From the IMG/VR virus record IMGVR_UViG_3300017730_000058, positions 1 to 29,029 of that record: a DNA stretch of 29,029 nt. One strand, 5' to 3'. Every line of letters starts with the position of its first letter. Position 1 is the stretch's first letter. Position numbers and translations under genes: made by a program. Below the pieces are notes generated by a model. The model worked only from the letters and a program-made list of their open reading frames with translations, had not been told where the DNA came from and did no database searches. Positions 3,645-17,907 of this stretch are shown here, piece by piece. The stretch is from a virus.

Positions 3645-5001
3645 TTAATATGCGCTCAAGTTGGCTAACAGGTTGTTGCGCTTCACGTTCTTGTTGAACC
3701 TGAGTCGCTTTTTCTTCTTGTAGTTCACTTAACTTTATTTGCAATTCTTCATCGCTCATATCAGGATTAAAATGCAATAATAAATCACGTTGGCTCATAA
3801 TACCATTAGCCATCTTCCATTCTAGCATTTTTAGTTCTTGATCAATAGACATCGGATAAGATACTTCACCAAAGTCAATAGATAAATCTTCATTTAAATT
3901 CATAACCCCATGCTTTTCTAGTATTGTTCTGTCTATCTCATACCTACTATGTTCCCATTCTTTAAAATAAGGGATGTCACTTTCACGAGATTCTAAGTTT
4001 TCAATTTCTAAAATACGCAACGCTTCACCTGAGGGTGAATTACCTCCCGATTCACCCCATCTTATTCTTAGGTGATTATTTTCTGCTGTTTGATTTGCAA
4101 ATGCTTTGACACTTTCAATCATCTCATTAATACCTCCTCCTGGGCTAACATATTGAAATGTCGCTCCCTCTGGTAATATAATTGCAGAATCAATACCTGA
4201 CTTAATTACACTTTGGCCTTCATCTATTCCTGTGAAAACTGGTTGCCCTAATCTACTTCTAACGCTTAATGCTATTTCAGTCATTGCTATTCCAATTTGT
4301 ATAGCACTTCTTATTACATCATAACTAGATGAGGGATAAATAACTTTACTGATAGGAGTAATTCCATACGGATTGATCATATCTTCGTTCCCTAAAACAG
4401 CATATCTATTTCCTTTTTGATTAAATCTAAAATGCATTCCAGGCATTCCATCTCTATCTTCTGACCAGAATACATACTGTCTATCTTTATTATTACCTTT
4501 ATCAACTTCATAACTATATCCGTATGGCTCTGAATCACCTTGTAGATAGTATTCTTTTACAAAAGGAAGTATTTCATATTCTAATCTTTGTTTCCGTTCA
4601 TTAAACTTAGTTTTAAAGTGGCAACTACCTAACAACCAAGCTAACTCACTAAAACATTTTGTTTGACTATCTAGCATATAAGCGATGTTTTTATAATCAT
4701 CGTTTTCCTCTCCACCTATTATTCTTTTTGGAGCATTCTTATATAGCATCATTCTTGCTCTACTAAAACGTGGAACTACTTTTTGAGGGAATGTTGGAAT
4801 TTGTTGCAAAGATTCACTTGAGAAGTATTGCTCAATATGTTTATCCATATTAATATTATAGTAAAAATCCATAGCAGTCATTCTTTCAGCCATCTCTTTT
4901 TCTTTAAACTCTTGCTCGGCTTTAGCTACTGTTTGAAGTATTATTTGTTCAGATAGTTCAGGGATTACTACTTGATTCACTGTTTTACCAAAATTATACA
5001 T
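3637..5001 (-). CDS. portal protein
   Basis: The product is 454 residues. Features that fit the dodecameric portal are the early TVAKAEQEFKEKEMAERM helix, then KVVPRFSRARMMLYKNAPKR, the WLLGSCHFK strand region, the central long helical segment around SVRSRLGQPVFTGI, then RWGESGGNSPSGEALRILE followed by an acidic helix, and a Gln/Glu-rich coiled C-terminus. The SGExLRxLE pattern is typical of SPP1/HK97-type portal crowns. It lies between the large terminase and the Mu F-like gene, the canonical order. The ribosome site is weak (GGTAAAATAAT-ATG), so translation is probably coupled to the terminase gene. Confidence 0.85.
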   Translation of the reverse strand: MYNFGKTVNQVVIPELSEQIILQTVAKAEQEFKEKEMAERMTAMDFYYNINMDKHIEQYFSSESLQQIPTFPQKVVPRFSRARMMLYKNAPKRIIGGEENDDYKNIAYMLDSQTKCFSELAWLLGSCHFKTKFNERKQRLEYEILPFVKEYYLQGDSEPYGYSYEVDKGNNKDRQYVFWSEDRDGMPGMHFRFNQKGNRYAVLGNEDMINPYGITPISKVIYPSSSYDVIRSAIQIGIAMTEIALSVRSRLGQPVFTGIDEGQSVIKSGIDSAIILPEGATFQYVSPGGGINEMIESVKAFANQTAENNHLRIRWGESGGNSPSGEALRILEIENLESRESDIPYFKEWEHSRYEIDRTILEKHGVMNLNEDLSIDFGEVSYPMSIDQELKMLEWKMANGIMSQRDLLLHFNPDMSDEELQIKLSELQEEKATQVQQEREAQQPVSQLERILNA

Positions 5002-6329: not shown

Positions 6330-6665
6330 TTAGTCCTCTCCTATAACCATTACTTTGATTGGTTCGCTTTTTGTTGTTCGCTCTTGTCGCTCTAACGCTT
6401 TACCTTCCATGCGCTCTACTATGAATTGTATTGCTCTAAGGTCTCCACGTTCTGCTAATTGAAATAACTTACCTAATATTATTTCCCTACGCTCTTTGCC
6501 ATTTACTTCTTGAAAGCTAAATTGTTTTATTAAATCAGTATAAGCATTGCGCCTACCATTAGGATTACCAGACTCTCCTTTTTTCCATCTATTGCCTAGC
6601 TTATTGCCTTTAGCAAACTTTCCATTATCTTTATGATCACGTTTGTTCTGCGTTTGTTTAGTCAT
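6330..6665 (-). CDS. terminase small subunit-like protein (DUF5681-type N-terminus)
   Basis: The product is 111 residues. The N-terminus is basic and contains KKGESGNPNGRR, the hallmark of the DUF5681 domain found in front of phage terminases. It is followed by a helical region (YTDLIKQFSF, then ERREIILGKLFQLAERGDLRAIQFIVERMEGKA) that resembles the helical bundle of small terminase subunits. Small terminases recognise the packaging site and load the large subunit. The position two genes upstream of the large terminase, with a tight overlap, supports the call. The start overlaps the previous stop. Confidence 0.75.
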   Translation of the reverse strand: MTKQTQNKRDHKDNGKFAKGNKLGNRWKKGESGNPNGRRNAYTDLIKQFSFQEVNGKERREIILGKLFQLAERGDLRAIQFIVERMEGKALERQERTTKSEPIKVMVIGED

Positions 6666-6840
6666 CTAATTGCACTAATCCCATCGAGATTGGTTTGTTT
6701 AACATATCCATTAAGTCTTTGACTTTGTCGTTGTCTATTTCAAATACATCGAATTCAATACGCCAGTTATGAGTCATCTTTAGATTTTTAATACCAACTA
6801 GCTCTACATTAAGAGCTGTATTATTTTTTTCTTTTGCCAA
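6658..6840 (-). CDS. small hypothetical protein (TTG start)
   Basis: The product is 60 residues. The only plausible start that keeps the conserved-looking N-terminus is TTG at 6840. The next ATG would leave about 38 residues (from MTHNWRIEF). The core WRIEFDVFEIDNDKVKDLMDMLNKP, ending MGLVQLDD, looks like an alpha/beta mini-domain. It overlaps the preceding 34-residue gene by 20 bases and the small terminase start by eight, so it is translated as part of the head operon. Function is not recognised. Confidence 0.6.
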   Translation of the reverse strand: MAKEKNNTALNVELVGIKNLKMTHNWRIEFDVFEIDNDKVKDLMDMLNKPISMGLVQLDD

Positions 6841-6925
6841 ATCTAGCTTTTTTAGATTTCATCGGTTTAGATTTTTTTGGTGGTCTACCACGTTTTGAAC
6901 CATAAGTTCCTTTACCTTTGGGCAT
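6821..6925 (-). CDS. 34-residue highly basic protein
   Basis: The gene runs from ATG at 6925 with ribosome site AAGGA (6933-6937) to TAA at 6823-6821. The product begins MPKGKGTYGSKRGRPPKKSK and continues with more lysine and arginine, so it has almost no acidic residues. GSKRGRPPKK contains an AT-hook-like core (RGRPPKK), which suggests DNA minor-groove binding. It is the first gene of the head/packaging block and is tightly overlapped by the next gene. I recall similar 'MP(M)GKGTYGS' mini-proteins in marine phages. Function unknown. Confidence 0.65.
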   Translation of the reverse strand: MPKGKGTYGSKRGRPPKKSKPMKSKKARFGKRKK

Positions 6926-6987
6926 AATATTTTCCTTGCTTTTATAGTATCTTAATTTAAAAACACTTTTAAAGTTATTGAAATATA

Positions 6988-7399: not shown

Positions 7400-7536
7400 C
7401 TTGGATATTTCTCACTGCAATCTTGACAACTCCATATATGCCCATTATTATTATCTTGCCTATTAACCATGGTTACTAATTTACGGCAAATACCACATTT
7501 AAAACTATCTATGTAATTCTCAATCGGTTCGCTCAC
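7378..7536 (-). CDS. 52-residue zinc-ribbon protein (GTG start)
   Basis: A GTG at 7536 opens a 52-residue frame with two CxxC knuckles: FKCGICRKLV and WSCQDCSEKY, spaced by about 22 residues, the spacing of a small zinc ribbon. Starting instead at the ATG at about 7475 would lose the first knuckle, so GTG is preferred. GGGG lies a few bases upstream. The start overlaps the end of the cyclotransferase gene in another frame. Such mini zinc ribbons are common in phages. Function unknown. Confidence 0.6.
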   Translation of the reverse strand: MSEPIENYIDSFKCGICRKLVTMVNRQDNNNGHIWSCQDCSEKYPRWNHLNT

Positions 7537-8098
7537 TAATTACCCCACTCATAATACAATCTACAATAAATGCTTCTTCATCTAAAGTATTTAAGTTTAT
7601 CTTGCTACGTTGTTTTACTAAGTCCATATAAATTTTATTAGTTGGTGCTCTTCTGCCGTCAAAGAATCTCATATGAAACACTAATTTATCTGGTGTGTCA
7701 ATATACAATCTATCATCTATCATTACACTATATTTTCTGCTTACATACTCTTTCCAAAACCCGCTTTTAATCCTAGTCAGCTTATAGTAATTATTTTTAA
7801 ATTTATCTTTATCTAATGTCACATAATAGCTCATATCTAATTTACTATCATATATCCTTTTATAAAACTTACCCTCTCCTTCTAGTGCATCTATAGCTGT
7901 TAGCATCTTATCATCTATTTCATATACCTCTCCATATACTTTCCTGGCAGTTATATCTTCAAACATTAAAGGAAATCCATGAGTAATATCAAACAGCGCA
8001 TATCCGTGAATTACTTCATACCTTATAAAGTTAGCATTTCTTAAATAAAAATGGTTTTTAGCACCCTTTTTGAGCGTGCCATATACAAATAATTTCAT
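7520..8098 (-). CDS. gamma-glutamylcyclotransferase-like (AIG2/GGCT fold) with C-terminal extension
   Basis: The product is 192 residues. Residues 1-95 match the GGCT/AIG2 fold: MKLFVYGTLKKG substrate loop, Asn at 15, KVYGEVYEI strand, and AIDALEGEGKFYKR carrying the expected catalytic acid (E73) and the Y/R that follow it. These enzymes cleave gamma-glutamyl amides to release 5-oxoproline, and in some cases make or trim gamma-glutamyl conjugates. About 90 further residues follow that I do not recognise. The gene starts with TAATG overlap on the glutamine amidotransferase gene, and the amidoligase lies just beyond it, so it likely acts on the same amide chemistry. The substrate is unknown. 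Confidence 0.85.
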   Translation of the reverse strand: MKLFVYGTLKKGAKNHFYLRNANFIRYEVIHGYALFDITHGFPLMFEDITARKVYGEVYEIDDKMLTAIDALEGEGKFYKRIYDSKLDMSYYVTLDKDKFKNNYYKLTRIKSGFWKEYVSRKYSVMIDDRLYIDTPDKLVFHMRFFDGRRAPTNKIYMDLVKQRSKINLNTLDEEAFIVDCIMSGVISERTD

Positions 8099-8991
8099 TA
8101 CTTAACCTTTCTAATTGTTGAACCATCGTTTGCTTTAAACATTTTTAGTTGATCACTATATGAAAATCTAGGAACAAATCTTTCAACTGTCTCTGATTTA
8201 CTTTCATAAGCCCCAATCTTTTTGTTATAAAAAGCAAATTTCTTTGGCTTTGGTTTTTTTATCGTGATTTCTTTAGTATCTATTTTGAGTGTCTTAGTAT
8301 TAATCCGAACCATTGTATTTGGCTTTATAGTAATTGCATTTTTATAATCAACTTTAAAACCTGATTTAACAATAGCATCTGTGCTACCATAAGCATATCC
8401 ATCTATTTCGGGAATATAATACATCTGAATTGGATTATTAGCTTTAACCATATATACATATTCTGGTTTTTCTAAGTCTGCCCATACTATAGCTACACGA
8501 CCACTTACTTTTGGCAATCTATTATTAACAAATTCACTCATACTGCCTGAAGTTTCATATAGTCTAAATATGGCTTCACTATCAACTTGGGCATATCTTT
8601 CCATAGCATACTTATTAAACAGCTCTTTATGGTTATGTATTGAGCCATTATGAGTACCTATAGTTTGACCTGTCCGTATAGGGTGGTTATTTTTATTAAT
8701 AGTTGGTGAGCCAAGTGTCGCATATCTAGTGTGACCCATTAATGTAGTTACTCCGTTGTAAATTAAATCAATGTTATCTTGGGCATCTGAATCTTCAAAG
8801 AATTTATATGCATCTTTTGCTTTTTTACAAATAGTATAATCTCCGAACTTATCTATTAAAGCAAATCCTGTAGCGTGACCACCTCTGATATCTGCTTCGT
8901 ATAACATTTTTACAAAAGACTTTGAGACCCGATTAAGGGCCTCGTTGTCTCTGTCTTTTTCTTTTAAAATAATTCCTGCTAATCCGCACAT
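8098..8991 (-). CDS. class II glutamine amidotransferase (Ntn hydrolase)
   Basis: The product is 297 residues and begins MCGLAG, so Cys2 becomes the N-terminal nucleophile after Met removal. Further family motifs are RGGHATG (36-42), GHTRYATLG (86-94), GTHNGSIHN (112-120) and VDSEA (136-140). These are the glutaminase signatures shared by PurF, GlmS and AsnB, which release ammonia from glutamine. There is no phosphoribosyl, SIS or ATP-PPase synthetase domain. After about residue 215 there is only a basic extension. Ammonia would therefore be passed to another protein, most simply the adjacent amidoligase. It has a good ribosome site (AGAGAGGAG) and starts two bases after the amidoligase stop. 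Confidence 0.92.
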   Translation of the reverse strand: MCGLAGIILKEKDRDNEALNRVSKSFVKMLYEADIRGGHATGFALIDKFGDYTICKKAKDAYKFFEDSDAQDNIDLIYNGVTTLMGHTRYATLGSPTINKNNHPIRTGQTIGTHNGSIHNHKELFNKYAMERYAQVDSEAIFRLYETSGSMSEFVNNRLPKVSGRVAIVWADLEKPEYVYMVKANNPIQMYYIPEIDGYAYGSTDAIVKSGFKVDYKNAITIKPNTMVRINTKTLKIDTKEITIKKPKPKKFAFYNKKIGAYESKSETVERFVPRFSYSDQLKMFKANDGSTIRKVK

Positions 8992-8993
8992 AA

Positions 8994-10019
8994 TTATGCT
9001 CCTCTCTGTAGTTGCTCTTTAATTGTATTAAAATACTTAGTTCCTCTTCGGCTTGCGTTCATCGCTGAAGTATTTAATTCTGCAAATCTTTTTGTGATCA
9101 CTTTATTAGCGAATTTTATATCTTCACATCTATCTTTACTACCGATAAAACCGATTGCTTTTCTAAGGTGAAACATACCCGCTTCATTAGTCTGAACATT
9201 AGTAAAGTTTACACGACTGTTCTCTTTGCTAACAACTACAAAAGCCTGAGTAAATACTATCCACGCCCAAAGTTTTTCAAAACTTAAAGTTCCCTGGTGG
9301 TATCTAAATTCAACAGAACCTCTGGTCCAGATGTTTTTTAGATTTAAACCGCAGTATCTACTTCCTTGAGTTTCTCTTGGGTTGTTACTAGTATTCACTC
9401 CTGCACCTGAATTTTCATATTTTCTGTCACAATCAATTTTTAAATTATCATCTATTTTTTTTGTGATTGATTTAACAGATATTTCTTGTCCCCACCATTG
9501 TCCGAATACAACTCTTGCAGGCTTAGTCCACCAACCTCGGCCAATTTTCTTTAATCTTGAAGGAGCAATTAAGCGGTAGATAATATGTTCATATTTAACT
9601 ACTGTTTTGATTAAAGTATTAAGGAAAGATGTTACAACTTCTTTACTTTTTAACATTACGTCAGTAACATCGTGGTGAACGTGAGTACCACATGTCTTAT
9701 TTACTTTACAATCTAACTCATTTAAAACTCTTAAAACTGTTTTAAGTTGTTCTTTACCATTTTGACCATATAACTTAGGAGATACAAGCTCGTTGTTTCC
9801 GTAGTGAGTATATCCAAGACTTAAAGACTTAACCGTGCAATCTGTAGTCATTTTCCAGTGCTCTACTGTTTCGTGACCATAACCTTCTAATTTACAAGTT
9901 ATATCGTGATTGTTATTTAACGCCTCTACAACAGAACTCTTTGAAACTCCTCTTGGAATTAATAGTTCTAGTTCTACACCAAACGCTAACTCATTATTAA
10001 AATGTCCTTTTTTATTCAT
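8994..10019 (-). CDS. amidoligase of the COOH-NH2 ligase superfamily (Amidoligase_2-like)
   Basis: The product is 341 residues. Motifs seen are LAFGVELELL (11-20) with the Mg/ATP-binding glutamates E16/E18, a WKMTTDCTV segment with D60, ELVSPKLYG (77-85), KTCGTHVHHD (108-117), and late in the protein RYCGLNL and RGSVEFRYHQGTL. This is the glutamine-synthetase/glutamate-cysteine-ligase-type amidoligase family that couples a carboxylate to an amine with ATP. The family is described in phage and bacterial operons together with GATase II and AIG2-type cyclotransferases, exactly as here. It is the first gene downstream of a strong promoter, with ribosome site AAGGGAAG. The substrate (peptide, nucleotide base or small molecule) cannot be read from the sequence. 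Confidence 0.9.
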   Translation of the reverse strand: MNKKGHFNNELAFGVELELLIPRGVSKSSVVEALNNNHDITCKLEGYGHETVEHWKMTTDCTVKSLSLGYTHYGNNELVSPKLYGQNGKEQLKTVLRVLNELDCKVNKTCGTHVHHDVTDVMLKSKEVVTSFLNTLIKTVVKYEHIIYRLIAPSRLKKIGRGWWTKPARVVFGQWWGQEISVKSITKKIDDNLKIDCDRKYENSGAGVNTSNNPRETQGSRYCGLNLKNIWTRGSVEFRYHQGTLSFEKLWAWIVFTQAFVVVSKENSRVNFTNVQTNEAGMFHLRKAIGFIGSKDRCEDIKFANKVITKRFAELNTSAMNASRRGTKYFNTIKEQLQRGA

Positions 10020-10084
10020 TTTGACTTCCCTTCGCTTTTTGTTAATTTCGCTTTTTTTATTAAACAGTTAATCATCGTGGTATA

Positions 10085-10113
10085 ATATTACTATGAAAAA
10101 CAATACGTGTAAA
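10085..10113 (-). promoter_or_regulatory. sigma70-type promoter P1 for the amidoligase operon
   Basis: On the minus strand: -35 TTTACA (10113-10108), 17-base spacer, -10 TAATAT (10090-10085). Expected start is near 10078, giving a leader of about 60 bases to the amidoligase ATG. The -35 box lies in one arm of a dyad GTGTAAA-7-TTTACAC, so a repressor or activator could act here. It shares an extended element with P2 at 16.45 kb. Confidence 0.75.
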
Positions 10114-10133
10114 GTCTTTTTTTACACTTTTTT
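10109..10133 (-). repeat. 25-base upstream element shared with promoter P2 (copy 1)
   Basis: On the minus strand, AAAAAAGTGTAAAAAAA then GACTTTAC. The copy at 16450-16474 is identical in 23 of 25 positions (GTG becomes GTC, and GAC becomes CAC). Both copies sit at the same distance from their -10 boxes and include the first five bases of the -35 box. It looks like a regulator site or an A-tract UP-like element. Confidence 0.75.
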
Positions 10134-10142
10134 AACTCTTTG

Positions 10143-11015
10143 TTAAGTGTTTACTATATTTTTTACATAATCTTCTATGTTTTTTACTGGTTTATAGTCT
10201 AATAATGTTTCTGCAGCTGTTAAATCAGCTAATGTAATATCATATTCCCCTTTTCTAGTTGGAATATATTGTCTTGGATAGTTTTTACCGAACATATCGG
10301 CTATCTCATTAATAGAATAGTTTTTTCCTCTACCTAATTCAAATACGGGAGTTTTAAAAGTGCTTTCTAATTTTATTATTAGTTCTTTCATACTAATTAA
10401 TCCACTTACAATATCTTCAATATGAGTAAAGTCTCTGCGTTGCTCTCCCGTGCCTACTATTGTTAAAGGTTTATTATCTCTAAATTGCTTTTCAAATATA
10501 CCAATTACTGTAGACCATTTCCCACTTTCTACTTGATATGGTCCATATACATTATAAAATCTACAAATCATGGTTTTTAATTTCTTATGCTTAGAGTATA
10601 ATTTGCACATTTGCTCTCCACTATGTTTTGACCAGGCATAAGGGCTTTCATATATTCCGCTATGAAAAGAGCTAGAACCTGAATAAATTACAGGAATGTT
10701 ATTATCTGCAGCGGTTTCAAGTAAGTTTAATGTGCTTAAAAAATTATTTTTAATTGTTGGTTTCGGGTCTTTAATGGAAGGCTGTATTCTTGAATATGCA
10801 GCTAAGTGATAAACTAAATCAATTTTATCTTCAATATACCAATAGCCTTCTGCTAAGTCTTGGTTTAAATAAGTGACTCCAGGCAAATGATTTTCTTCTT
10901 TCCCAATATAATAACTATCATAAGAGTAAATATTATGTTTTTTAGAATCTTTTAAAAGCCCTTTAATTAAGTTTGTCCCGACAAAGCCAGTCCCACCAGT
11001 GACTAATATATTCAT
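10143..11015 (-). CDS. NAD-dependent NDP-sugar epimerase/dehydratase (extended SDR)
   Basis: The product is 290 residues. It has the Rossmann glycine motif GGTGFVG (7-13), an NxDL pattern near 51-54, LAAYSRIQPS (71-80), catalytic S near 113-115 (YSGSSS), and YAWSK (126-130), the Y-x3-K of extended short-chain dehydrogenases. RFYNVYGP is the family's downstream motif. It closely resembles UDP-glucose 4-epimerase and related enzymes, acting on an NDP-sugar in the cytoplasm. It overlaps the glycosyltransferase stop (ATGA) behind GGAGG, so the pair is co-translated and probably supplies the sugar donor. The specific sugar is unknown. It is the last gene before P1. Confidence 0.9.
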   Translation of the reverse strand: MNILVTGGTGFVGTNLIKGLLKDSKKHNIYSYDSYYIGKEENHLPGVTYLNQDLAEGYWYIEDKIDLVYHLAAYSRIQPSIKDPKPTIKNNFLSTLNLLETAADNNIPVIYSGSSSFHSGIYESPYAWSKHSGEQMCKLYSKHKKLKTMICRFYNVYGPYQVESGKWSTVIGIFEKQFRDNKPLTIVGTGEQRRDFTHIEDIVSGLISMKELIIKLESTFKTPVFELGRGKNYSINEIADMFGKNYPRQYIPTRKGEYDITLADLTAAETLLDYKPVKNIEDYVKNIVNT

Positions 11016-11848
11016 TTATCCTCCAGTTTTATTAGTTTCATTCCATAGTTATTTATTTTATCAGGTATAATTAAACCTTTTTTCTTTTTTAATTTATTAT
11101 GTTTAAATGGTTTATAATTTACTTGGTGCTGCCATCTTCCCCATTTCCAGCTAACTTTTGTAACATCTGGGTGTTGATCAACTAATGATTGTGCCATTTT
11201 TAATCTTCCATCATCTATCTCATATAAATCTTCTGTATTACCACCTGTCATTGTCATTGTAGTTGTCTTATCGCAAAGAAATGCTTGAAATAATATTGTA
11301 CACCATCCATCTTTTAATGCTCTAAGCGACAAATCAGTGTCTTCATTATATCTACCACGCCATCTATAAGGTATGTCGTTTTGAATTAGTATACAAGAAT
11401 ACACTCTTGTGTTTTGTCTATAAGCTCTGAGCTTTTCTTTACGTGGAATAAACATAAAATACTCAAAACCTGATATTGCAACATTTTCATATCTATCAAC
11501 AAAGTCTTCAGCGCATCTAAAAATAGTTCCAGATGATACGGGAACTGGCAAATTATTGTTTAATCTATAAAAATGCATTAAATTATCATCCATTATCCAA
11601 TGTCTTTTTGCTCCTATACTCATAGAGTGATGCCACACCCAATTTCTTGCTGGTATTGATCCGCTTCCTAAATTACTAAATGGTAAGACAAGTATTTTTT
11701 GAGAGTTAATTACATTAGCATATTGTTTATATTCTTGAGGCTCTATTACAATGTGATATGGAACATTCATTTTTTCTAAAGCCTTACTTGTTTTTCTTGT
11801 CTCCCACCTGCCTTTAGAAATTATATAAATTGGATATTTAGAGTTCAT
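11012..11848 (-). CDS. TET-associated-glycosyltransferase-like (TAGT) GT-A enzyme
   Basis: The product is 278 residues. The N-terminus YPIYIISKGRWETRKTSKAL, then PYHIVIEPQE, ILVLPFSNLGSGSIPARNW and RHWIMDDNLMHF (D87/D88, a DxD-like metal site) form the GT-A pattern of the TAGT family, predicted from comparative genomics to glycosylate oxidised bases in phage DNA. NEDTDLSLRAL later is the acidic acceptor-site motif of GT-A enzymes. No TET/JBP dioxygenase or base hydroxymethylase is visible in this window, so the acceptor is uncertain: DNA base, protein or host glycan. The epimerase follows with ATGA overlap. Confidence 0.8.
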   Translation of the reverse strand: MNSKYPIYIISKGRWETRKTSKALEKMNVPYHIVIEPQEYKQYANVINSQKILVLPFSNLGSGSIPARNWVWHHSMSIGAKRHWIMDDNLMHFYRLNNNLPVPVSSGTIFRCAEDFVDRYENVAISGFEYFMFIPRKEKLRAYRQNTRVYSCILIQNDIPYRWRGRYNEDTDLSLRALKDGWCTILFQAFLCDKTTTMTMTGGNTEDLYEIDDGRLKMAQSLVDQHPDVTKVSWKWGRWQHQVNYKPFKHNKLKKKKGLIIPDKINNYGMKLIKLEDK

Positions 11849-12111
11849 TACTCTTCCTCATCAATATATCTTTTATTCATAAACCTAGTTATTTTTACTT
11901 CAGGAAACCAAATACTTTTTGTATTCGGAGTTATATTTTGATTTACAAGCTCTGCGAATTTAGCAACATCTGCTTCGCTTTCAAAGTTTATTTTTAATGA
12001 AAACTCAGCTGTAAGATTTTGCATTTTAAATTCAGGCATATCTTGCCATTCTTGCCTCCAGGATTCTAATTGCTCTAAATCCCCAAATAAAGATTCTTGA
12101 TTATCACTCAT
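11848..12111 (-). CDS. conserved small phage protein next to the glycosyltransferase
   Basis: The product is 87 residues with ribosome site AGGAG. The N-terminal third is acidic and Trp-rich (WRQEWQDMPEF). The rest, LKINFESEADVAKFAELV then TKSIWFPEVKITRF, is an alpha/beta unit. I have a sense of the 'FxxxxDxxxFAxLxxQxxTxxTKSIWFP' pattern from many uncultured phages, often beside DNA-modification or ParB-like genes, but I cannot name a domain. It shares TAATG with the glycosyltransferase start, so it may be a partner of that enzyme. Confidence 0.7.
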   Translation of the reverse strand: MSDNQESLFGDLEQLESWRQEWQDMPEFKMQNLTAEFSLKINFESEADVAKFAELVNQNITPNTKSIWFPEVKITRFMNKRYIDEEE

Positions 12112-12508
12112 TATTATACTCCTTTATTTTTTGATCAAGTTCTTGTCTTGTTATTTTACCATCCCTTAACTCTAATCCCCACTCCCAAAGTTTGTTAATT
12201 AATCCACTTGGCGTTTCATCTCTTTTACTCTTAATATGTTTTTCATCAAATTTTTCTATTCTATTTGCCATTAAAATACGTTCTATTATTTGCATTTTTG
12301 GTAGCCTTCCAGCTAATTGCCCATTTGGTAAATCACATGAATTAAAAATTTCAGACCAAGATTTTTTTATAGTTTCTAAAGAATACTTCATTAAGATACT
12401 ACAAAATTGATTAAATAACAACTGATTATTTCCTTTTATTTCTAAAGTGTCAAATAAGTCGTTTATATAGTGACTAGCTTCCTGTGAACTGCATTTCTTC
12501 TCGCTCAT
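12104..12508 (-). CDS. helical hypothetical protein, possibly helicase-loader-like
   Basis: The product is 134 residues, all helical in appearance: ASHYINDLFDTLEI, then FNQFCSILMKYSLETIKKSW and LPKMQIIERILMANRI. The first part has the spacing of small phage helicase-loader or loader-inhibitor domains, and it directly follows the replication-initiator-like gene (35-base overlap). That makes a role in loading a replicative helicase conceivable. This is inference from position and helix pattern only. The ribosome site is AAGGG. Confidence 0.6.
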   Translation of the reverse strand: MSEKKCSSQEASHYINDLFDTLEIKGNNQLLFNQFCSILMKYSLETIKKSWSEIFNSCDLPNGQLAGRLPKMQIIERILMANRIEKFDEKHIKSKRDETPSGLINKLWEWGLELRDGKITRQELDQKIKEYNNE

Positions 12509-13106
12509 TCTTTCCCTTCTTGTCGTTTATTTTCCACTCTTTATTATTTTTAACCCAAGTTAATAGCCTTCTTGGTATCTCAAAAGTCTGTTGTAATTCA
12601 AACCTCATCTTTGTATTTGAGTTGTTTTTTTCTGTCCAAAACTCTATAAAATTACTTGTTTCATCGTTTGAATACTTTTTTTCTTTTATAACATTATTAA
12701 CTTTTTCTATAAATTTATCTTTCCTTTTATCTATATCTTTATCTTTAAGAGTTCCTGGAACTGTTTGGATATAGTTATCAAGACCTTTTTCTTTAAGTCT
12801 TTTAATAACAGACATATGTGGTTTACTATTTTCTTTTAATAATCCATATTGGTACTCTACAAAACTAGATATAAAGTACTGGTCTTCACTTATCCTATGC
12901 ATTTTATCTCTTATTAACTTTGGTAAATCTTCATCTGAATCTATTTTTTCACCTATAAAAAACGATGCGGCTTCCCAATCGCCATCTAAAATTCCAGCGT
13001 GATCACATTTTGTTATTATATATACCCAAATTAATTTACCTCTTGGTTCCAATTTTCTGAACCAACTTTTGTCCCATATTTTTGTATCAATAAAGCGTTT
13101 AGCCAT
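12474..13106 (-). CDS. replication initiator-like protein (winged-helix N-terminus)
   Basis: The product is 210 residues. Residues 1-110 (MAKRFIDTKIWDKSWFRKL, IWVYIITKCDHAGI, ASFFIGEKID, FISSFVEYQYG) follow the pattern of phage DnaD/replication-protein-O-like winged-helix domains that bind the replication origin. A charged linker follows. The C-terminus, FIEFWTEKNN then FELQQTFEIPRRLLTWVKNN, is the typical end of this family, where it may contact the helicase loader. It sits in the replication block with a strong ribosome site (AAGGAG). No origin could be located with confidence nearby. Confidence 0.75.
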   Translation of the reverse strand: MAKRFIDTKIWDKSWFRKLEPRGKLIWVYIITKCDHAGILDGDWEAASFFIGEKIDSDEDLPKLIRDKMHRISEDQYFISSFVEYQYGLLKENSKPHMSVIKRLKEKGLDNYIQTVPGTLKDKDIDKRKDKFIEKVNNVIKEKKYSNDETSNFIEFWTEKNNSNTKMRFELQQTFEIPRRLLTWVKNNKEWKINDKKGKNEREEMQFTGS

Positions 13107-13323
13107 TATTTTCTCCTTCTTTTTTTATTTTATCTGAAATGCCTTTATCTAACCCAATACCTAAACACCACATTAAAGCATCCCGCCAACCATCGTGGTA
13201 CTTTTCTTGTTCATATATTTCATCTTTTTTACTTCTTGCTTTTATTCTTTTTGTAAATAATAACTCCGCCCTTGAAGTTTGCAAAAAATATTCCATTATT
13301 ATTTCGTTTTTCTTTTTTCTCAC
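13099..13323 (-). CDS. small hypothetical protein (GTG start)
   Basis: The product is 74 residues. GTG at 13323 is preceded by GGAGG four bases upstream and overlaps the previous TGA (GTGA), so I accept it over the internal ATG. The protein is basic at the N-terminus, and its middle EYFLQTSRAELLFTKRIKAR is helical, followed by KYHDGWRDALMWCLGIGLD. It is co-translated with the replication genes. No family recognised. Confidence 0.6.
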   Translation of the reverse strand: MRKKKNEIIMEYFLQTSRAELLFTKRIKARSKKDEIYEQEKYHDGWRDALMWCLGIGLDKGISDKIKKEGENNG

Positions 13324-13586
13324 TTTTCCTCCTTACATTTTTTACATTTTAGTTTTTCTTTTCCAATTATTGGTATGTGGTTTTTAGGATAATATTCATA
13401 ATCCCTATTATACATTTTTCTGTTCTTTTTCCAAGTTAATTTACATTCTGGGCAATATTTTATTTGATCATCTATGCTGATATGTAATCTTTCATATTTA
13501 TTAGTCTTTTTTAATTTGCTCATTTTATTGTTAACATTACTTTGGTCCGTAACTTCTAAAATGTATTCAATCATTGATTTTTTCAT
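13320..13586 (-). CDS. small zinc-ribbon protein
   Basis: The product is 88 residues. Its C-terminal half has two knuckles, KYCPECKLTW and LKCKKCKEEK, about 35 residues apart, which fits a zinc ribbon or treble-clef-like unit. The N-terminus MKKSMIEYILEVTDQSN is helical. It overlaps the NinG/HNH-like gene (ATGA) and the next gene (GTGA). Probably nucleic-acid or protein binding; function unknown. Confidence 0.6.
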   Translation of the reverse strand: MKKSMIEYILEVTDQSNVNNKMSKLKKTNKYERLHISIDDQIKYCPECKLTWKKNRKMYNRDYEYYPKNHIPIIGKEKLKCKKCKEEK

Positions 13587-13969
13587 AGCTCCGCATTATT
13601 CTCCTCCTCATATTTAGTTAGCTTTTCTTTTAATTCTTTATAGTGCCAATCTGATAATAAATCTTTTTTACTTGCTCTAGTATTAGAACGTAAAGTCAAT
13701 TTATTGAATTTTGATTTTCCTATCTTTTCTATTTTATGCTTTCTGTGTTCTTGTGGGTGGCTGCCAAGATATTGATGACAGCCATAACACAATGCTTCTG
13801 CATTTTCAAAATCGAATCTAGTGGAATATTTTGCTCTGCCGTAAAAATGAGAACAATGCAACCCTTGTCGTTTGCCAGTAGGGTAATATTTACTACATCT
13901 TTGGCAAGTCCATTTATCTCTAGTTCTTATTGCATTAGAAAAAACTACATCCCACTTACTTCGTTTCAT
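13583..13969 (-). CDS. NinG/HNH-like nuclease-related protein
   Basis: The product is 128 residues. It has a zinc-binding start CQRCSKYYP (22-30), then GLHCSHFYGRAKYSTRF and ALCYGCHQYLG, i.e. C-x2-C, HCSHF and C-x2-C. This is the NinG/Rap-like and HNH treble-clef pattern: HCSHF corresponds to the catalytic His region, followed by the N-A-x-x-L-C and GCHxxxG segments. NinG-type proteins act in phage recombination. HNH relatives cut DNA. The location in the replication block suits either. Whether the nuclease is active cannot be told. Confidence 0.75.
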   Translation of the reverse strand: MKRSKWDVVFSNAIRTRDKWTCQRCSKYYPTGKRQGLHCSHFYGRAKYSTRFDFENAEALCYGCHQYLGSHPQEHRKHKIEKIGKSKFNKLTLRSNTRASKKDLLSDWHYKELKEKLTKYEEENNAEL

Positions 13970-14475
13970 TAAAATAAGTCCTCTTCAGTTCCAAGCATTT
14001 CTTTTTCATTTTTAATTGATTCACATATTTCTTCATGTAAAGCAATAACACCATGAGTATTTACTTTTAAGTCATCTAAGTTTTTTGAAAAAGCAGAGGC
14101 AACTTTCATACTAGCAAAAACCTGTATTTTAATTTCTGTCTCGTTTTTAGTCGCAATCATTTGATTGTCTAATGTATCTGTATTACCAACTGCGTGAACT
14201 TCCCACTTATGTAAATAAAAAGCCTCTGATTCATCGGTGTCTATAATCTCAACAATTGAGCCACTACTAAACCTATTAAGCTCATCAAATAATATCTTAT
14301 CTACAAAAGTAGTATAGTCGGCATTATTATAAATAATATTATAGCCGTACCACGGTCGCATGCTTCCGTCGTTTTTTTTCTTATCTGGTGACTCTCCACT
14401 AAAGCCATCTTTTAATGTGACTTTATATTTTTTACCTTTTTCAATATCCAGTTTTGGATTCCTTTTCTTTTCCAT
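13969..14475 (-). CDS. putative single-stranded DNA-binding protein (OB-fold-like, acidic tail)
   Basis: The product is 168 residues. The N-terminal part alternates strands (YKVTLKDGFSGE, then RPWYGYNIIYNNADYTTFV, FSSGSIVEIIDTDE), consistent with an OB fold with aromatic residues that could stack on bases. The far C-terminus is acidic and ends EEDLF, like the conserved acidic tip of SSB proteins that recruits partner enzymes. It lies between the HTH protein and the NinG-like gene, a replication/recombination context. The fold call is inferred from strand pattern and tail. There is no clear signature motif. Confidence 0.55.
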   Translation of the reverse strand: MEKKRNPKLDIEKGKKYKVTLKDGFSGESPDKKKNDGSMRPWYGYNIIYNNADYTTFVDKILFDELNRFSSGSIVEIIDTDESEAFYLHKWEVHAVGNTDTLDNQMIATKNETEIKIQVFASMKVASAFSKNLDDLKVNTHGVIALHEEICESIKNEKEMLGTEEDLF

Positions 14476-14585
14476 TATATACTCCTATATATTAGTTTAA
14501 TTAAAAATTGTATTACTAGAGCTGAGAATGCTGCGGCAATATACAAGAACACCCACATCTCAAAGTTATCAAAAAAATCTTTCAT
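14475..14585 (-). CDS. 36-residue single-span membrane protein
   Basis: ATG at 14585 with AGGAG seven bases upstream, stop sharing TAATG with the next gene. The protein begins MKDFFDNFEMWVFLYIAAAF and continues as one transmembrane helix, ending in a basic tail (LIKLIYRSI). The strong ribosome site and one-base overlap argue that it is expressed. Function unknown; a small inner-membrane modulator of host processes is possible. Confidence 0.65.
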   Translation of the reverse strand: MKDFFDNFEMWVFLYIAAAFSALVIQFLIKLIYRSI

Positions 14586-14603
14586 TATTTTCTCCTAATT
14601 TTT

Positions 14604-14659
14604 GGGGCGTGAGGAAAGCGAAATCCAACATGATGTTACGAAGGAAAACCCCACACCCC
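14604..14659 (-). other. long GC-rich stem-loop upstream of the small membrane protein gene
   Basis: On the transcribed (minus) strand the arms GGGGUGUGGGG and CCUCACGCCCC pair over 11 positions, two of them G-U wobbles. On the other strand the same positions would be mismatches, so the RNA of the minus strand is the likely structured form. The loop is about 34 bases and contains a short inverted repeat (AACAT/ATGTT). There is no following U-run, so it is not a standard terminator. It may stabilise or process the mRNA. Confidence 0.55.
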
Positions 14660-14666
14660 GATTATA

Positions 14667-14984
14667 TTATCTTATATGCTTTTTTTCATCAAATGCAGGT
14701 GGTGTATCTAACCATGATTTAAATTCTTTCGGACTATCTGAAAACATACTGATTTGGTCTTTATTTCCAGGTGCGTTGATCATTTTATATTCTGCAAATC
14801 TAATGCTCTGATTATCCATGTTAGTATGAGACTTATCTATTGTTTCAATTTTCATACCATCTTTTTTTAAATCAAATATAATCGCAGATAATCTATAAGC
14901 ATTGAATAATTCAATAGCATCTTTTTGAGTAATGCCGTTGCCTAATTCCAAATGCTCTTTTATTTTTTGCTTTTTAGTTTTCAT
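14667..14984 (-). CDS. helix-turn-helix protein (HTH_39-like)
   Basis: The product is 105 residues. Residues 5-50 (IKEHLELGNGITQKDAIELF then RLSAIIFDLKKDGMKIET) match the small winged-helix domain seen in many phage proteins, with the 'G-x-(I/L)-T-x-x-x-A ... RLSA-x-I-x-DL+x-G' signature. The rest is polar. It may be a transcriptional regulator or bind replication DNA. GAGGAG precedes the ATG, and the start overlaps the previous gene. Confidence 0.75.
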   Translation of the reverse strand: MKTKKQKIKEHLELGNGITQKDAIELFNAYRLSAIIFDLKKDGMKIETIDKSHTNMDNQSIRFAEYKMINAPGNKDQISMFSDSPKEFKSWLDTPPAFDEKKHIR

Positions 14985-15126
14985 TATTTATACTCCTCAT
15001 TTTATTTACATCATCTTGTAAGTCAGATATAATCTTAGCATTTTCATCTAGTAATCTGAAAATTTCTTTCATTGACTTATCATACTCACTTATTGATTTA
15101 TCAATTTCATTAAATATTTTATTCAT
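14974..15126 (-). CDS. 50-residue coiled-coil protein
   Basis: I use the ATG at 15126, one base after the previous stop. A longer frame from TTG at 15156 would overlap that gene without a clear ribosome site. The product, MNKIFNEIDKSISEYDKSM then FRLLDENAKIISDLQDDV, is one amphipathic coiled coil. It lies in the early block and overlaps the HTH gene. Function unknown. Confidence 0.55.
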   Translation of the reverse strand: MNKIFNEIDKSISEYDKSMKEIFRLLDENAKIISDLQDDVNKMRSINNEN

Positions 15127-15127
15127 A

Positions 15128-15343
15128 TTATTTATACCCCAATTCGTTTTGTTCAAAAGCGTCCATCTTAGTAGTTATAATATCAAGTCTTTGTCTCAAC
15201 ACCTTTAATTCAGCTTGTATTTTGTTCATATTCGCTGTTTTTTCAAATTCTATATGGTTATAAAGACTTCTGATAAAACCACTTAAATACATATACTCAT
15301 CTTTAAGTTTTTGCAATTGAAATATATTGGCTGGTGCTATCAT
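15128..15343 (-). CDS. 71-residue coiled-coil protein
   Basis: ATG at 15343 follows AAGG and comes one base after the nuclease-fusion stop. The protein is a helical heptad-rich sequence (LQKLKDEYMYLSGFI, then IQAELKVLRQRLDIITTKM). It resembles accessory coiled coils scattered through phage early blocks. No domain recognised. Confidence 0.6.
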   Translation of the reverse strand: MIAPANIFQLQKLKDEYMYLSGFIRSLYNHIEFEKTANMNKIQAELKVLRQRLDIITTKMDAFEQNELGYK

Positions 15344-15344
15344 A

Positions 15345-15965
15345 TTAAAACCTTGGGTTTATAAAATCCGTCCAGTGATTAACTAATTTTTTCTGTCCGT
15401 TCTTATTATGATCACCAACTTGAATATTAGTTGTCCATCTTTTATTAATTCGTTTATTTTTCATATACATTACAATAGGACTTATTAATCCATTAGGGTG
15501 TTGAATTTCTGTAACAAAAGCCACCCAGTCTGCTCTTGAACGCTTAACATCAAAACGGATAGAATTACTGCTGTCATATTGTTGAGAGTATTTTATTTGT
15601 AATGTTATAAATCTACTTTTATTGCCATCTCGAATCTCTACTATTCTGTCAACACCAGAATCATCAAGCCTAGATTTAGCAGTTGAAAAGCCTCTTTTTA
15701 ATAAATCTGCATCTGTATACAACTCGCCTACTTCACCACTTACTAAAGAGCTTTGTATAAAGTAATCTGAAGATAATTCTTTATCCCAAAGTTTATTCCA
15801 GCCATTGCTCCAACTTCTTAATTCTTTTTGCATCTGAAGTTCTATCTGAGCCCTAACAGTTTTTGCAATATCTTTGTTTTTTGTTTTAAGGCTTTTTGCT
15901 TTTCTTTTTCCATCTACATTAACACTAAGATAATAAGTACCATTGTTTTTATATAGTGAGCTCAT
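15345..15965 (-). CDS. integrase-type arm DNA-binding domain fused to a PD-(D/E)XK nuclease-like domain
   Basis: The product is 206 residues. Residues 1-50 (SLYKNNGTYYLSVNVDGK, RKAKSLKTKNKDIAKT) look like the arm-type DNA-binding domain of tyrosine recombinases. No recombinase catalytic domain follows. Instead residues 77-130 give GEVGE (E81), a LLKRGF strand, SGVDRIVEI with D106, and TLQIKYS with Q123-x-K125, the pattern of restriction-endonuclease-like (PD-(D/E)XK) enzymes such as Holliday-junction-resolvase relatives. That suggests a sequence-directed nuclease or recombination enzyme. Activity is not proven, since the third acidic position is Gln. It has a good ribosome site and overlaps the upstream gene. 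Confidence 0.7.
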   Translation of the reverse strand: MSSLYKNNGTYYLSVNVDGKRKAKSLKTKNKDIAKTVRAQIELQMQKELRSWSNGWNKLWDKELSSDYFIQSSLVSGEVGELYTDADLLKRGFSTAKSRLDDSGVDRIVEIRDGNKSRFITLQIKYSQQYDSSNSIRFDVKRSRADWVAFVTEIQHPNGLISPIVMYMKNKRINKRWTTNIQVGDHNKNGQKKLVNHWTDFINPRF

Positions 15966-16176
15966 TTTGCACTCCCTCTTGAATTTTATTTAATGATTTT
16001 AGTTCGTGGTTTAAACAAAGTCTGCGGTAACTTAAATCATCTTTAATTTTTTCATATTCACCCCAGTTATTAAACCTACAATCAAGCCAAGCAGCCCTAC
16101 TATTATTTTTTGCAGCTTGAATTTTAGAGTCTAATTTTTTTAACTCTTTCTCAACTAATTTTATTGTTTGTTTCAT
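15949..16176 (-). CDS. 75-residue charged hypothetical protein
   Basis: The start is ATG at 16176 after GGGGG. The product is helical (KLVEKELKKLDSKIQAAKNN, then WGEYEKIKDDLSYRRLCLNH), a likely coiled coil. It lies one base after the previous stop and overlaps the nuclease fusion. Function unknown. Confidence 0.6.
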   Translation of the reverse strand: MKQTIKLVEKELKKLDSKIQAAKNNSRAAWLDCRFNNWGEYEKIKDDLSYRRLCLNHELKSLNKIQEGVQNELTI

Positions 16177-16177
16177 C

Positions 16178-16387
16178 TTACTTACCCCCTAAGTGTACAC
16201 CAATAATGTATTTGGCTTTGTTTATCCACTGATTTCTAAGAACAGGGTCTGATGTTTCTTGAGCATCTGATAGAATACTTAATGCGAACATACTTCTATC
16301 TTCTGGTGACCGACTAAGTATTGATACATCTAGCTCTTTTTGTGTTATTCCAAAACACCTAATTTCATTATTTTGTTCTTTATTCAC
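16178..16387 (-). CDS. 69-residue hypothetical protein (GTG start), first gene behind P2
   Basis: AAGGAG lies six bases before a GTG at 16387, which I prefer over an ATG at 16417 that falls inside the likely transcription-start motif GATGATTAA. The product begins MNKEQNNEIRCFGITQKELD and continues SPEDRSMFALSILSDAQ. The middle is helical and there is a well-ordered C-terminus (INKAKYIIGVHLGGK). It would be the first product made from promoter P2, so an early-expressed regulator or host-takeover protein is a reasonable guess. No family recognised. Confidence 0.6.
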   Translation of the reverse strand: MNKEQNNEIRCFGITQKELDVSILSRSPEDRSMFALSILSDAQETSDPVLRNQWINKAKYIIGVHLGGK

Positions 16388-16425
16388 TTTTAACTCCTTG
16401 TTGTTTTGTTTAATCATCTGGTATT

Positions 16426-16454
16426 ATATTAAACACTATATTTGAAAAAGTAAA
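16426..16454 (-). promoter_or_regulatory. sigma70-type promoter P2 for the early/replication block
   Basis: On the minus strand: -35 TTTACT (16454-16449), 17-base spacer, -10 TAATAT (16431-16426), followed by AATACCAGATGATTAA. Expected start near 16419, giving a leader of about 30 bases to the GTG at 16387. The layout and the bases after the -10 nearly repeat promoter P1. Confidence 0.7.
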
Positions 16455-16474
16455 GTGTTTTTTTAGACTTTTTT
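16450..16474 (-). repeat. 25-base upstream element shared with promoter P1 (copy 2)
   Basis: On the minus strand, AAAAAAGTCTAAAAAAA then CACTTTAC, 23 of 25 positions identical to 10109-10133. It lies directly after the stop of the Pyr_excise-like gene. Unlike the P1 copy it has no dyad symmetry. Confidence 0.7.
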
Positions 16475-16479
16475 TAGTG

Positions 16480-16980
16480 TTAACTAAGTCTATTGTAAAT
16501 AAAAAGGTCTGGTCGAGGTCTATCTGTCCAGGCGGAGTTAGGTTTTATTTTCTCTGTTATATAATATAATAAGTATGATTCTACAACGCTTTGTGATTTA
16601 TATGCATCTGGCATACATTTAGGTCTTTGAGTTAATAAGTCTTGCGAATCATTAAATATAGATAACTCGTGTTTGTTATTATCGCACCACCTAATAACTT
16701 GCTCTGTTTTATGAGTCCTGTCACGCCACTCTGTATATATTTTACAAAGTTCTAGTGAGTGTTGTATAAGCCAGTTAAAGTTAGCTGAAGATGTTCTTGT
16801 CCATATTGTCATAGGGTGATTTACATACGCTTTTTTATAGGGTATATCTTTTGTATAACCTAGCTCGTGATATGCGGTACAAAGCATTTGGGCTGACTCT
16901 AAAATCATCTTGACTACATGTTTATCATGCATCATTTGTGCAGCAACTTTTGGTTTATTATCTAAGAAAAAAATATTCAT
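16480..16980 (-). CDS. Pyr_excise-like phage protein
   Basis: The product is 166 residues, MNIFFLDNKPKVAAQMMHDK then VVKMILESAQMLCTAYHELG. The start 'MN-x-F-x-x-D-x-x-P ... D-K-H-x-x-K-M-x-x-E-x-x-Q-M-L' resembles the family annotated as pyrimidine-dimer DNA glycosylase (Pyr_excise). Later NHPMTIWTRTSSANFNWLI and the C-terminal KPNSAWTDRPRPDLF recall the rest of that phage family. Enzymatic activity is not proven by the motifs I can see. It is transcribed from its own promoter P3 with ribosome site AAGGAG and begins the early block. Confidence 0.6.
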   Translation of the reverse strand: MNIFFLDNKPKVAAQMMHDKHVVKMILESAQMLCTAYHELGYTKDIPYKKAYVNHPMTIWTRTSSANFNWLIQHSLELCKIYTEWRDRTHKTEQVIRWCDNNKHELSIFNDSQDLLTQRPKCMPDAYKSQSVVESYLLYYITEKIKPNSAWTDRPRPDLFIYNRLS

Positions 16981-17014
16981 AAAAACTCCTTGTTTGTAGA
17001 TTAATCATCTATCT

Positions 17015-17043
17015 ATTATAAAAATAATTTTTTAAATAATCTA
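17015..17043 (-). promoter_or_regulatory. promoter P3 for the Pyr_excise-like gene
   Basis: On the minus strand: perfect -10 TATAAT (17020-17015), weak -35 TAGATT (17043-17038), 17-base spacer. The start would be near 17008, inside TAGATGATTAATCTA-like symmetry (17001-17013). It follows the terminator directly, so it restarts transcription after the tail operon. Confidence 0.55.
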
Positions 17044-17114
17044 TAAAAAAATAAGGGGCGGAAGCGATGATTAACAAGAAGTCAGCTACGGGAATGTAGC
17101 AATAAACCGCCCCT
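17043..17114 (-). terminator. rho-independent terminator of the tail operon
   Basis: On the minus strand, AGGGGCGG (17114-17107) pairs with CCGCCCCT (17061-17054), an 8-bp GC-rich stem. Inside is a second hairpin GCTAC-6-GTAGC (17100-17085). The outer stem is followed by TATTTTTTT. It lies 37 bases after the last tail gene stop. The branched loop is unusual for a terminator. Confidence 0.75.
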
Positions 17115-17151
17115 AAAGACTTACTAACTTAATAAATTAAGAAGTCATAAA

Positions 17152-17907
17152 CTAGCTTAATTGTTCTATAAGTTTAATTGATACTGAATATCTTTCAAAA
17201 GCCACTTCGGTAAACGTTAGTGGGCCATTTAATTTTACATAATTAAAATTTGTATCATCGTAATATACAAACTTTTTAAAATCAGTTACGTTTTGTTCCA
17301 TACTTGCCAAATTATCTCTAAATGTTTTTGAGATATTTTTAAAATTTAATGTCCATGTACTTCTTGGATTGTGTTTTTTATATGAATATTCAATTCCACC
17401 TAATGAAACATTTGTAATAGTTCCAAATTGTTCTGATGTATTTATACCTATATCTGGTTCAACTTCAAATTCTAATGGTACCCCCATTATAACTTCTGCA
17501 AGGCCAGAAAAGACACCATCTTCACTCCTTATAAACCAATACTGACTAGTATGTTCAGTACCTTGTATTACATCCCACCCTAAAGGAGTATCGCTATCAA
17601 ACTGCCAAAGACCTCCATCTGTACTTGTATTTGTTGAAGAAGAGCCTCGATACCACCATAAATCATTGCTGTCTGCCTGAGTATTATACTTTAATATACG
17701 CGATATTGTTTTTGCAGAGCCAAGATTAATTCTAATCATATCTTCATCACCAAAACCGCTAACTGCTTCCGCAATAGATTGGTCATTTATTTTGTGTTCG
17801 TTTGTTACCGCACTAGATGACGGTGTAAATGTTGGGAAAGAAAAAGTCCCCGCTGTAATAATTGCATTTGATATTCCTGCAGAATCATAATAAAATTGTT
17901 TTGCCAT
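17152..17907 (-). CDS. distal tail protein-like structural protein
   Basis: The product is 251 residues, beta-rich, with many Ser, Thr and Asn: MAKQFYYDSAGISNAIIT, then MIRINLGSAKTISRIL, STWTLNFKNISKTFRDNL and a closing FTEVAFERYSVSIKLIEQL. The fold of the ends (early beta strand pairs, late 'YSVSIKL(I)EQL') resembles siphophage tail proteins next to the hub. It follows the hub gene by one base and precedes the terminator, closing the tail operon. The exact component (distal tail, tip or fibre base) is uncertain. The ribosome site is GGGAAG. Confidence 0.65.
   Translation of the reverse strand: MAKQFYYDSAGISNAIITAGTFSFPTFTPSSSAVTNEHKINDQSIAEAVSGFGDEDMIRINLGSAKTISRILKYNTQADSNDLWWYRGSSSTNTSTDGGLWQFDSDTPLGWDVIQGTEHTSQYWFIRSEDGVFSGLAEVIMGVPLEFEVEPDIGINTSEQFGTITNVSLGGIEYSYKKHNPRSTWTLNFKNISKTFRDNLASMEQNVTDFKKFVYYDDTNFNYVKLNGPLTFTEVAFERYSVSIKLIEQLS

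Follow-up and report, generated by a model that had tools for sequence, protein, structure and literature searches.

Introduction

Among the antisense RNAs described in phages, those closest to the locus studied here are c4 of P1 and P7 (RF01695) and the related CI RNA of P4, small structured RNAs with loops complementary to the mRNA around the ribosome-binding site. The c4 RNA is processed out of a transcript in which it precedes its main target. The sar RNA of P22 and OOP of lambda, likewise antisense RNAs that regulate phage genes, come from genes that lie opposite their targets or next to them. In Firmicutes, FasX and ska form a pair in which the sRNA shields the 5' end of the mRNA. We know of no described phage RNA that uses one guide for the 5' ends of several operons, and none was found in the open-access literature that we searched, the coverage of which was incomplete. 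The specificity of c4 differs between related phages, as in the heteroimmunity of P1 and P7, sar pairs with the ant mRNA and represses antirepressor synthesis, and OOP pairs with the cII mRNA (PMC12197685). RoxS binds the extreme 5' end of the yflS mRNA (PMC5419742).

Here we analysed a stretch of 29,029 nucleotides from an IMG/VR virus record (the window), whose minus strand bears the main genes. Behind its late operon lies a hairpin which, judging from comparison with related genomes, is very probably an antisense RNA that the phage encodes and that acts in trans, arising as the 3' end of the late transcript and pairing through a short guide with the mRNA starts of three promoters, P1, P2 and P3. 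As in c4, unpaired parts of the hairpin are complementary to the targets around the ribosome-binding site, the Shine-Dalgarno part of this likeness being modest. Unlike c4, the RNA is placed behind the late operon and not in the leader of a target operon, there are two to four separate target promoters, some of them kilobases away, and the pairing would cover the exact 5' end. We found no Rfam match in window positions 9900-17400 at E up to 1, and none in seven relatives at gathering scores; given this and its different gene position, the hairpin is not a member of the c4 family, though it would work alike. It also differs from sar and OOP in that a short guide would direct it to several leaders at a distance. 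RoxS-yflS and FasX-ska involve chromosomal sRNAs of other bacteria, which stabilise and activate their targets, and a sequence relation to them, sought by Rfam only, was not seen.

Results

In the window, P3 and P2 precede an early block and P1 precedes an amidoligase/glutamine amidotransferase/GGACT-like cassette; then come the terminase and major capsid genes, the lysis and tail genes and, lastly, the hairpin. The first gene behind P1 encodes an Amidoligase_2 protein (8994..10019, minus strand; Pfam PF12224, 2e-26, and PHROGs) and is followed by genes for a glutamine amidotransferase (8098-8991, minus strand) and a gamma-glutamyl cyclotransferase-like protein (7520-8098, minus strand; PF06094, 4e-20). 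The first gene behind P2 (16178..16387, minus strand) more likely starts at the GTG at 16387, which is preceded by AAGGAG, than at the ATG inside GATGATTAA that the ORF caller chose (ORF 16178-16417). Behind P3 lies a pyrimidine-dimer-glycosylase-like gene (16480..16980, minus strand; PF03013, 6.5e-6; phrog_624). Of the window proteins that were scanned, none was recognisable as an integrase or a repressor. A well-conserved early protein at 12474-13106 (phrog_19415, with a function-less annotation) also occurs in the syntenic genomes and is a useful lineage marker. Upstream of gene 6658-6840, an AT-rich stretch, TTTCAATAACTTTAAAAGTGTTTTTAAATT (6841-6987, minus strand), is similar in several relatives of what we call lineage A and is possibly another promoter.

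The phage group is an uncultured, mostly marine one. Megablast and protein searches found no close relative among phage isolates, and a scan of genome contigs gave only distant relatives (25-45% identity for most matches), with no obvious prophage among them. When viral contigs were scanned for the exact pattern of the operator or of the promoter plus start, only one near-identical contig matched. A near-identical contig runs approximately 2 kb beyond one end of the window, indicating that the record is incomplete. Since the letters of the promoters are not conserved, we sought conservation by synteny: searches with the TAGT-glycosyltransferase and the amidotransferase gave 15 usable syntenic relatives, each with two to four promoters of the P1/P2 layout, and a search with an early protein added many more genomes.

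The sequence-only reading of this DNA had pointed to a 25-base element on the minus strand at 10109-10133, identical in 23 of 25 positions to that at 16450-16474. We confirm this match, and in an all-against-all comparison of the whole window it is the sole same-strand pair of 25-mers at or above 23 of 25, a level that no pair reached in four dinucleotide shuffles. The promoter layout said to be shared by the two sites is likewise present. On the minus strand P1 consists of TTTACA, 17 bases, TAATAT, TATACCAC and GATGATTAA (-35 to -10 at 10085..10113), and P2 of TTTACT, 17 bases, TAATAT, AATACCA and GATGATTAA (-35 to -10 at 16426..16454). Both thus have the -35 and -10 hexamers at approximately 17-bp spacing of a sigma70 promoter; this is a reading of the letters, with predicted starts, and the register of the -10 is ambiguous, as TATAAT or TATTAT is found in the same stretch 3 bases farther downstream. 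P3 has a TATAAT (17015-17020) without a clear -35.

The 25-base element turned out to be a portion of an array of four 11-bp repeats that runs up to the -35, namely AACACTTAACA/AAGAGTTAAAA/AAGTGTAAAAA/AAGACTTTACA at P1 (10108..10151, minus strand, including 10109-10133) and AGACTTAGTTA/ACACTAAAAAA/AGTCTAAAAAA/ACACTTTACTT at P2 (16448..16491, minus strand, including 16450-16474). Over 39 promoters of this phage group, the lag-11 autocorrelation reached a z of 10.1 against simple shuffles. A period of 11 bp fits, as expected, a transcription-factor or UP-type site, and the earlier proposal of a transcription factor or an A-tract/UP-type element is compatible with a phased array that overlaps the -35. 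The hexamers, the 17-bp spacer and the A-rich upstream sequence in helical phase are also those of sigma70 promoters with an UP element or phased operators. The repeat letters vary between genomes yet agree among the promoters of one genome, which suggests that a dedicated DNA-binding regulator, rather than alpha-CTD alone as at an UP element, would read the array. The earlier proposal that early block and amide cassette are controlled jointly gains support from the fact that both promoters have the same layout in the syntenic relatives. What is conserved in the promoter regions of relatives is this layout and the covariation described below, but not the letters themselves.

The window has four copies of the start motif GATGATTAA. 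Three copies lie on the minus strand at P1 (10068..10076, amide cassette), P2 (16410..16418, early block) and P3 (17001..17009, gene 16480-16980), where the TATAAT ends 5 nt before the motif, and one is inverted, at 17066-17074 in the hairpin; the P3 and hairpin copies had both escaped the sequence-only reading. Genome-wide, core matches are found almost only at promoter-like leaders. A start motif also stands at promoters without an upstream array, namely P3 in the window and sites in L014 (10095), L116 (11497), L016 (2589) and L119 (11524), so it did not simply arise along with duplicated promoters. The pyrimidine-dimer-glycosylase-like gene is placed elsewhere in L014, L116 and L119, with the start motif still before it. 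A duplicated promoter, which had been offered as the origin of the start-site motif, therefore does not account for a motif that stands at array-less promoters and covaries with a distant hairpin, and we rejected plain promoter duplication as it fails to predict that covariation.

The hairpin itself (17052..17117, minus strand), a predicted structured RNA with a fold z of -4.35, closes the late (tail) operon at its 3' end. Its guide, TTAATCATC (17066..17074, minus strand), is the reverse complement of GATGATTAA and is mostly unpaired in the predicted fold, with an unpaired probability of 0.69 compared to 0.50 for the whole hairpin. Next to the guide is a linker, CTTCTTG (17075..17081, minus strand), complementary to CAAGGAG, the Shine-Dalgarno stretch in the P2 and P3 leaders, and beyond the linker lies an inner hairpin, GCTAC-ATTCCC-GTAGC (17085..17100, minus strand), with a C-rich apical loop. 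Far better folding than in shuffles was found in 12 of the 13 cases tested (z -3.1 to -6.3), the exception being the L204 hairpin with a z of only -1.8. In an alignment of the lineage-A hairpins, pairing holds in 99% of cells, and both partners have changed in 7 of the 14 pairs, among them all five pairs of the inner helix; these counts refer to lineage A, and MAFFT across both hairpin lineages misaligned the guide.

An equivalently placed hairpin is present in more than 40 loci. Of 41 loci measured, 40 have the hairpin 17-61 nt behind the stop codon of the last late gene and one has it at 137 nt, and no consistent promoter was seen between stop codon and hairpin. Given this proximity and the lack of a consistent intervening promoter, an origin of the RNA from the 3'UTR of the late operon is most likely, and a location between a stop codon and an operon terminator is indeed that of 3'UTR-derived sRNAs. 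Seen from the hairpin, P2 lies approximately 0.6 kb and P1 approximately 7 kb further on.

Other hairpins were seen in these genomes. L103 contains at 4886-4967 a likely paralogue of the late hairpin (covariance model, E 0.0038) with a different single-stranded segment, TTATTGACAC. Early-block hairpins in L203 (5874-5938, CTATTCAC) and L238 (5578-5638, TTAATCAC) carry the same guide as the late-operon hairpin of their own genome. A second conserved hairpin, RNA2, lies in the early block of the window (14604-14659, minus strand), where it includes GTCATGTT and GGATTTCGCTTTCC, and also in L096 (4440), L098 (3922), L102 (4011), L103 (5471), L104 (5016) and L112 (5481). The RNA2 segment ATTTCGCTTT is complementary to the P1 leader of the window (AAAGCGAAAT) and to the beginning of an early gene in L096, L098 and L102 (ATGTTACTTAAAAAAAAGCGAAATC or a similar sequence); the corresponding two sides in L103 are CTTCGCTTT and AAAGCGAAG. 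RNA2 is possibly a second antisense RNA.

Evidence for pairing comes from covariation. In each of the 15 relatives, the late-operon hairpin carries the reverse complement of that genome's own start motif, and these motifs are diverse (GTGATTATC, GTGAATAAC, GTGAATACT, GTGAATAT, GTGAATCA or GATGATTA); across all relatives the start motifs also include GTGAATACTA, ATGAATAA, GCGAAT and ATGATGATTGATAAA. Over 16 genomes with 12 distinct hairpins, the complementary run averaged 8.2 with the own hairpin and 5.8 with swapped ones (0 of 200,000 permutations), the leaders in this test having been picked with the motif already known. We also made an out-of-sample test with 20 distinct new genomes, in which hairpins were sought by structure alone and the leader was taken as the stretch before the next gene. 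The mean was 9.2 for own and 7.1 for swapped hairpins (0 of 100,000 permutations), with sense, reversed and complement controls at approximately 6.1; in a few of these loci the hairpin was picked by hand among several candidates, and with fully automatic picking the result was 0 of 200,000 permutations. Shared ancestry is not fully removed from these own-versus-swapped permutations. Further start motifs, predicted from new guide types, were moreover borne out, namely ATGATGATTGATAAA (L185), GTGATTAATAA (L238), TTTGCGAATA (L218), TTATGAATAA (L223, L224, L228 and L239) and TAGTTGTGAATAT (L204, L206, L217 and L219). Leaders in L119 and L201 match the guide poorly, and that of L188 matches it only if wobble pairs and a bulge are allowed.

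A second stretch of complementarity, with the Shine-Dalgarno region, bears on what the pairing would do. When the duplex of guide plus linker was scored at 47 gene starts of the window, P2 and P3 ranked first and second, and P1 fourth. Either the linker CUUCUUGUU (lineage A) or the apical loop UUGCUCC (lineage B) matches the Shine-Dalgarno of the leaders, and targets pair better in this region than other genes (p 4e-4). The effect is modest, and statistically weak because every gene has a Shine-Dalgarno. This second match argues for a translational block and against the best-surviving alternative, namely that pairing at the 5' end protects or activates the mRNAs by shielding them from RppH, RNase E or RNase J, so that the cassette stays on late. 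Coverage of the extreme 5' end, as in the site bound by RoxS (PMC5419742), speaks for such protection, which we nevertheless regard as rather unlikely.

Less probable still is a DNA operator: a phage protein would bind the GATGATTAA duplex at the +1 of the three promoters and at the inverted hairpin copy, which is about 60 bp upstream of P3, and the sites would co-evolve, so that covariation within a genome would follow too. Against this, the hairpin copy is always antisense and falls where the RNA fold is mostly unpaired; compensatory changes preserve the helices of that fold. The complementarity, furthermore, stops at the putative +1, 4-8 nt past the -10 depending on the register (start sites are predicted), and nearby hairpin bases match the Shine-Dalgarno, which an operator would not need. 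Finally, GCGAAT and GTGAAT leaders coexist in L212, L218, L221 and L236, where the G of the guide can pair with C or U (G-C or G.U). This coexistence is all that we take from counting G.U mismatches, since the 2-mismatch sites (21 wobble, 202 other) were collected with G.U-only counting and loose leader criteria and most of them are not leaders. That the hairpin is a mere intrinsic terminator and the promoter likeness just sigma70 consensus plus UP element is highly improbable and was rejected: the hairpin does lie directly behind the last tail gene, with a T-run after it in the window, but a plain terminator leaves the conserved inner hairpin unexplained and fails to predict the guide covariation, with three permutation tests against it, and a clear U-run is missing in several genomes, the hairpin being kept without a T-run in L104, L105 and L096.

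Discussion

The antisense reading suggests the following course of events. Late transcription would end in the hairpin, which would then be cut or terminated into a separate RNA of approximately 70 nt. Its single-stranded guide would pair with the first 8-11 nucleotides of the P1, P2 and P3 mRNAs, whose transcripts are predicted to start at the motif, and the adjoining C/U-rich linker or the apical loop would pair with the Shine-Dalgarno region of the same mRNAs. With late transcription running, the early block and the amide cassette would most likely be translated less or not at all. Taken alone, the sign of this regulation is somewhat more probably repression than the opposite. Transcription from P1 and P2 would be controlled separately, via the 11-bp repeat array.

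A more speculative extension, which we hold to be doubtful, is that guides and targets co-diversify as a self/non-self system, in which a phage already in late transcription silences the early genes of any incoming phage that shares its guide. Such a system would amount to superinfection exclusion, with heteroimmunity groups like those of P1/P7 c4 and an advantage for rare guides, and it fits the many guide types that occur over an otherwise similar hairpin (e.g., L103 compared with L098).

In practical terms, the covariation would offer a bioinformatic rule, in which one locates the hairpin, reads the guide and then locates the promoters, thereby mapping putative start sites in uncultured phages. 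If the antisense reading is true, one short RNA from the late operon would address all earlier operons by their first nucleotides, across an uncultured phage lineage, and would let the late stage feed back on the early one in a compact circuit that needs no repressor protein. The address code would diverge between relatives, such that compatibility in mixed infections would be predictable from approximately nine bases.
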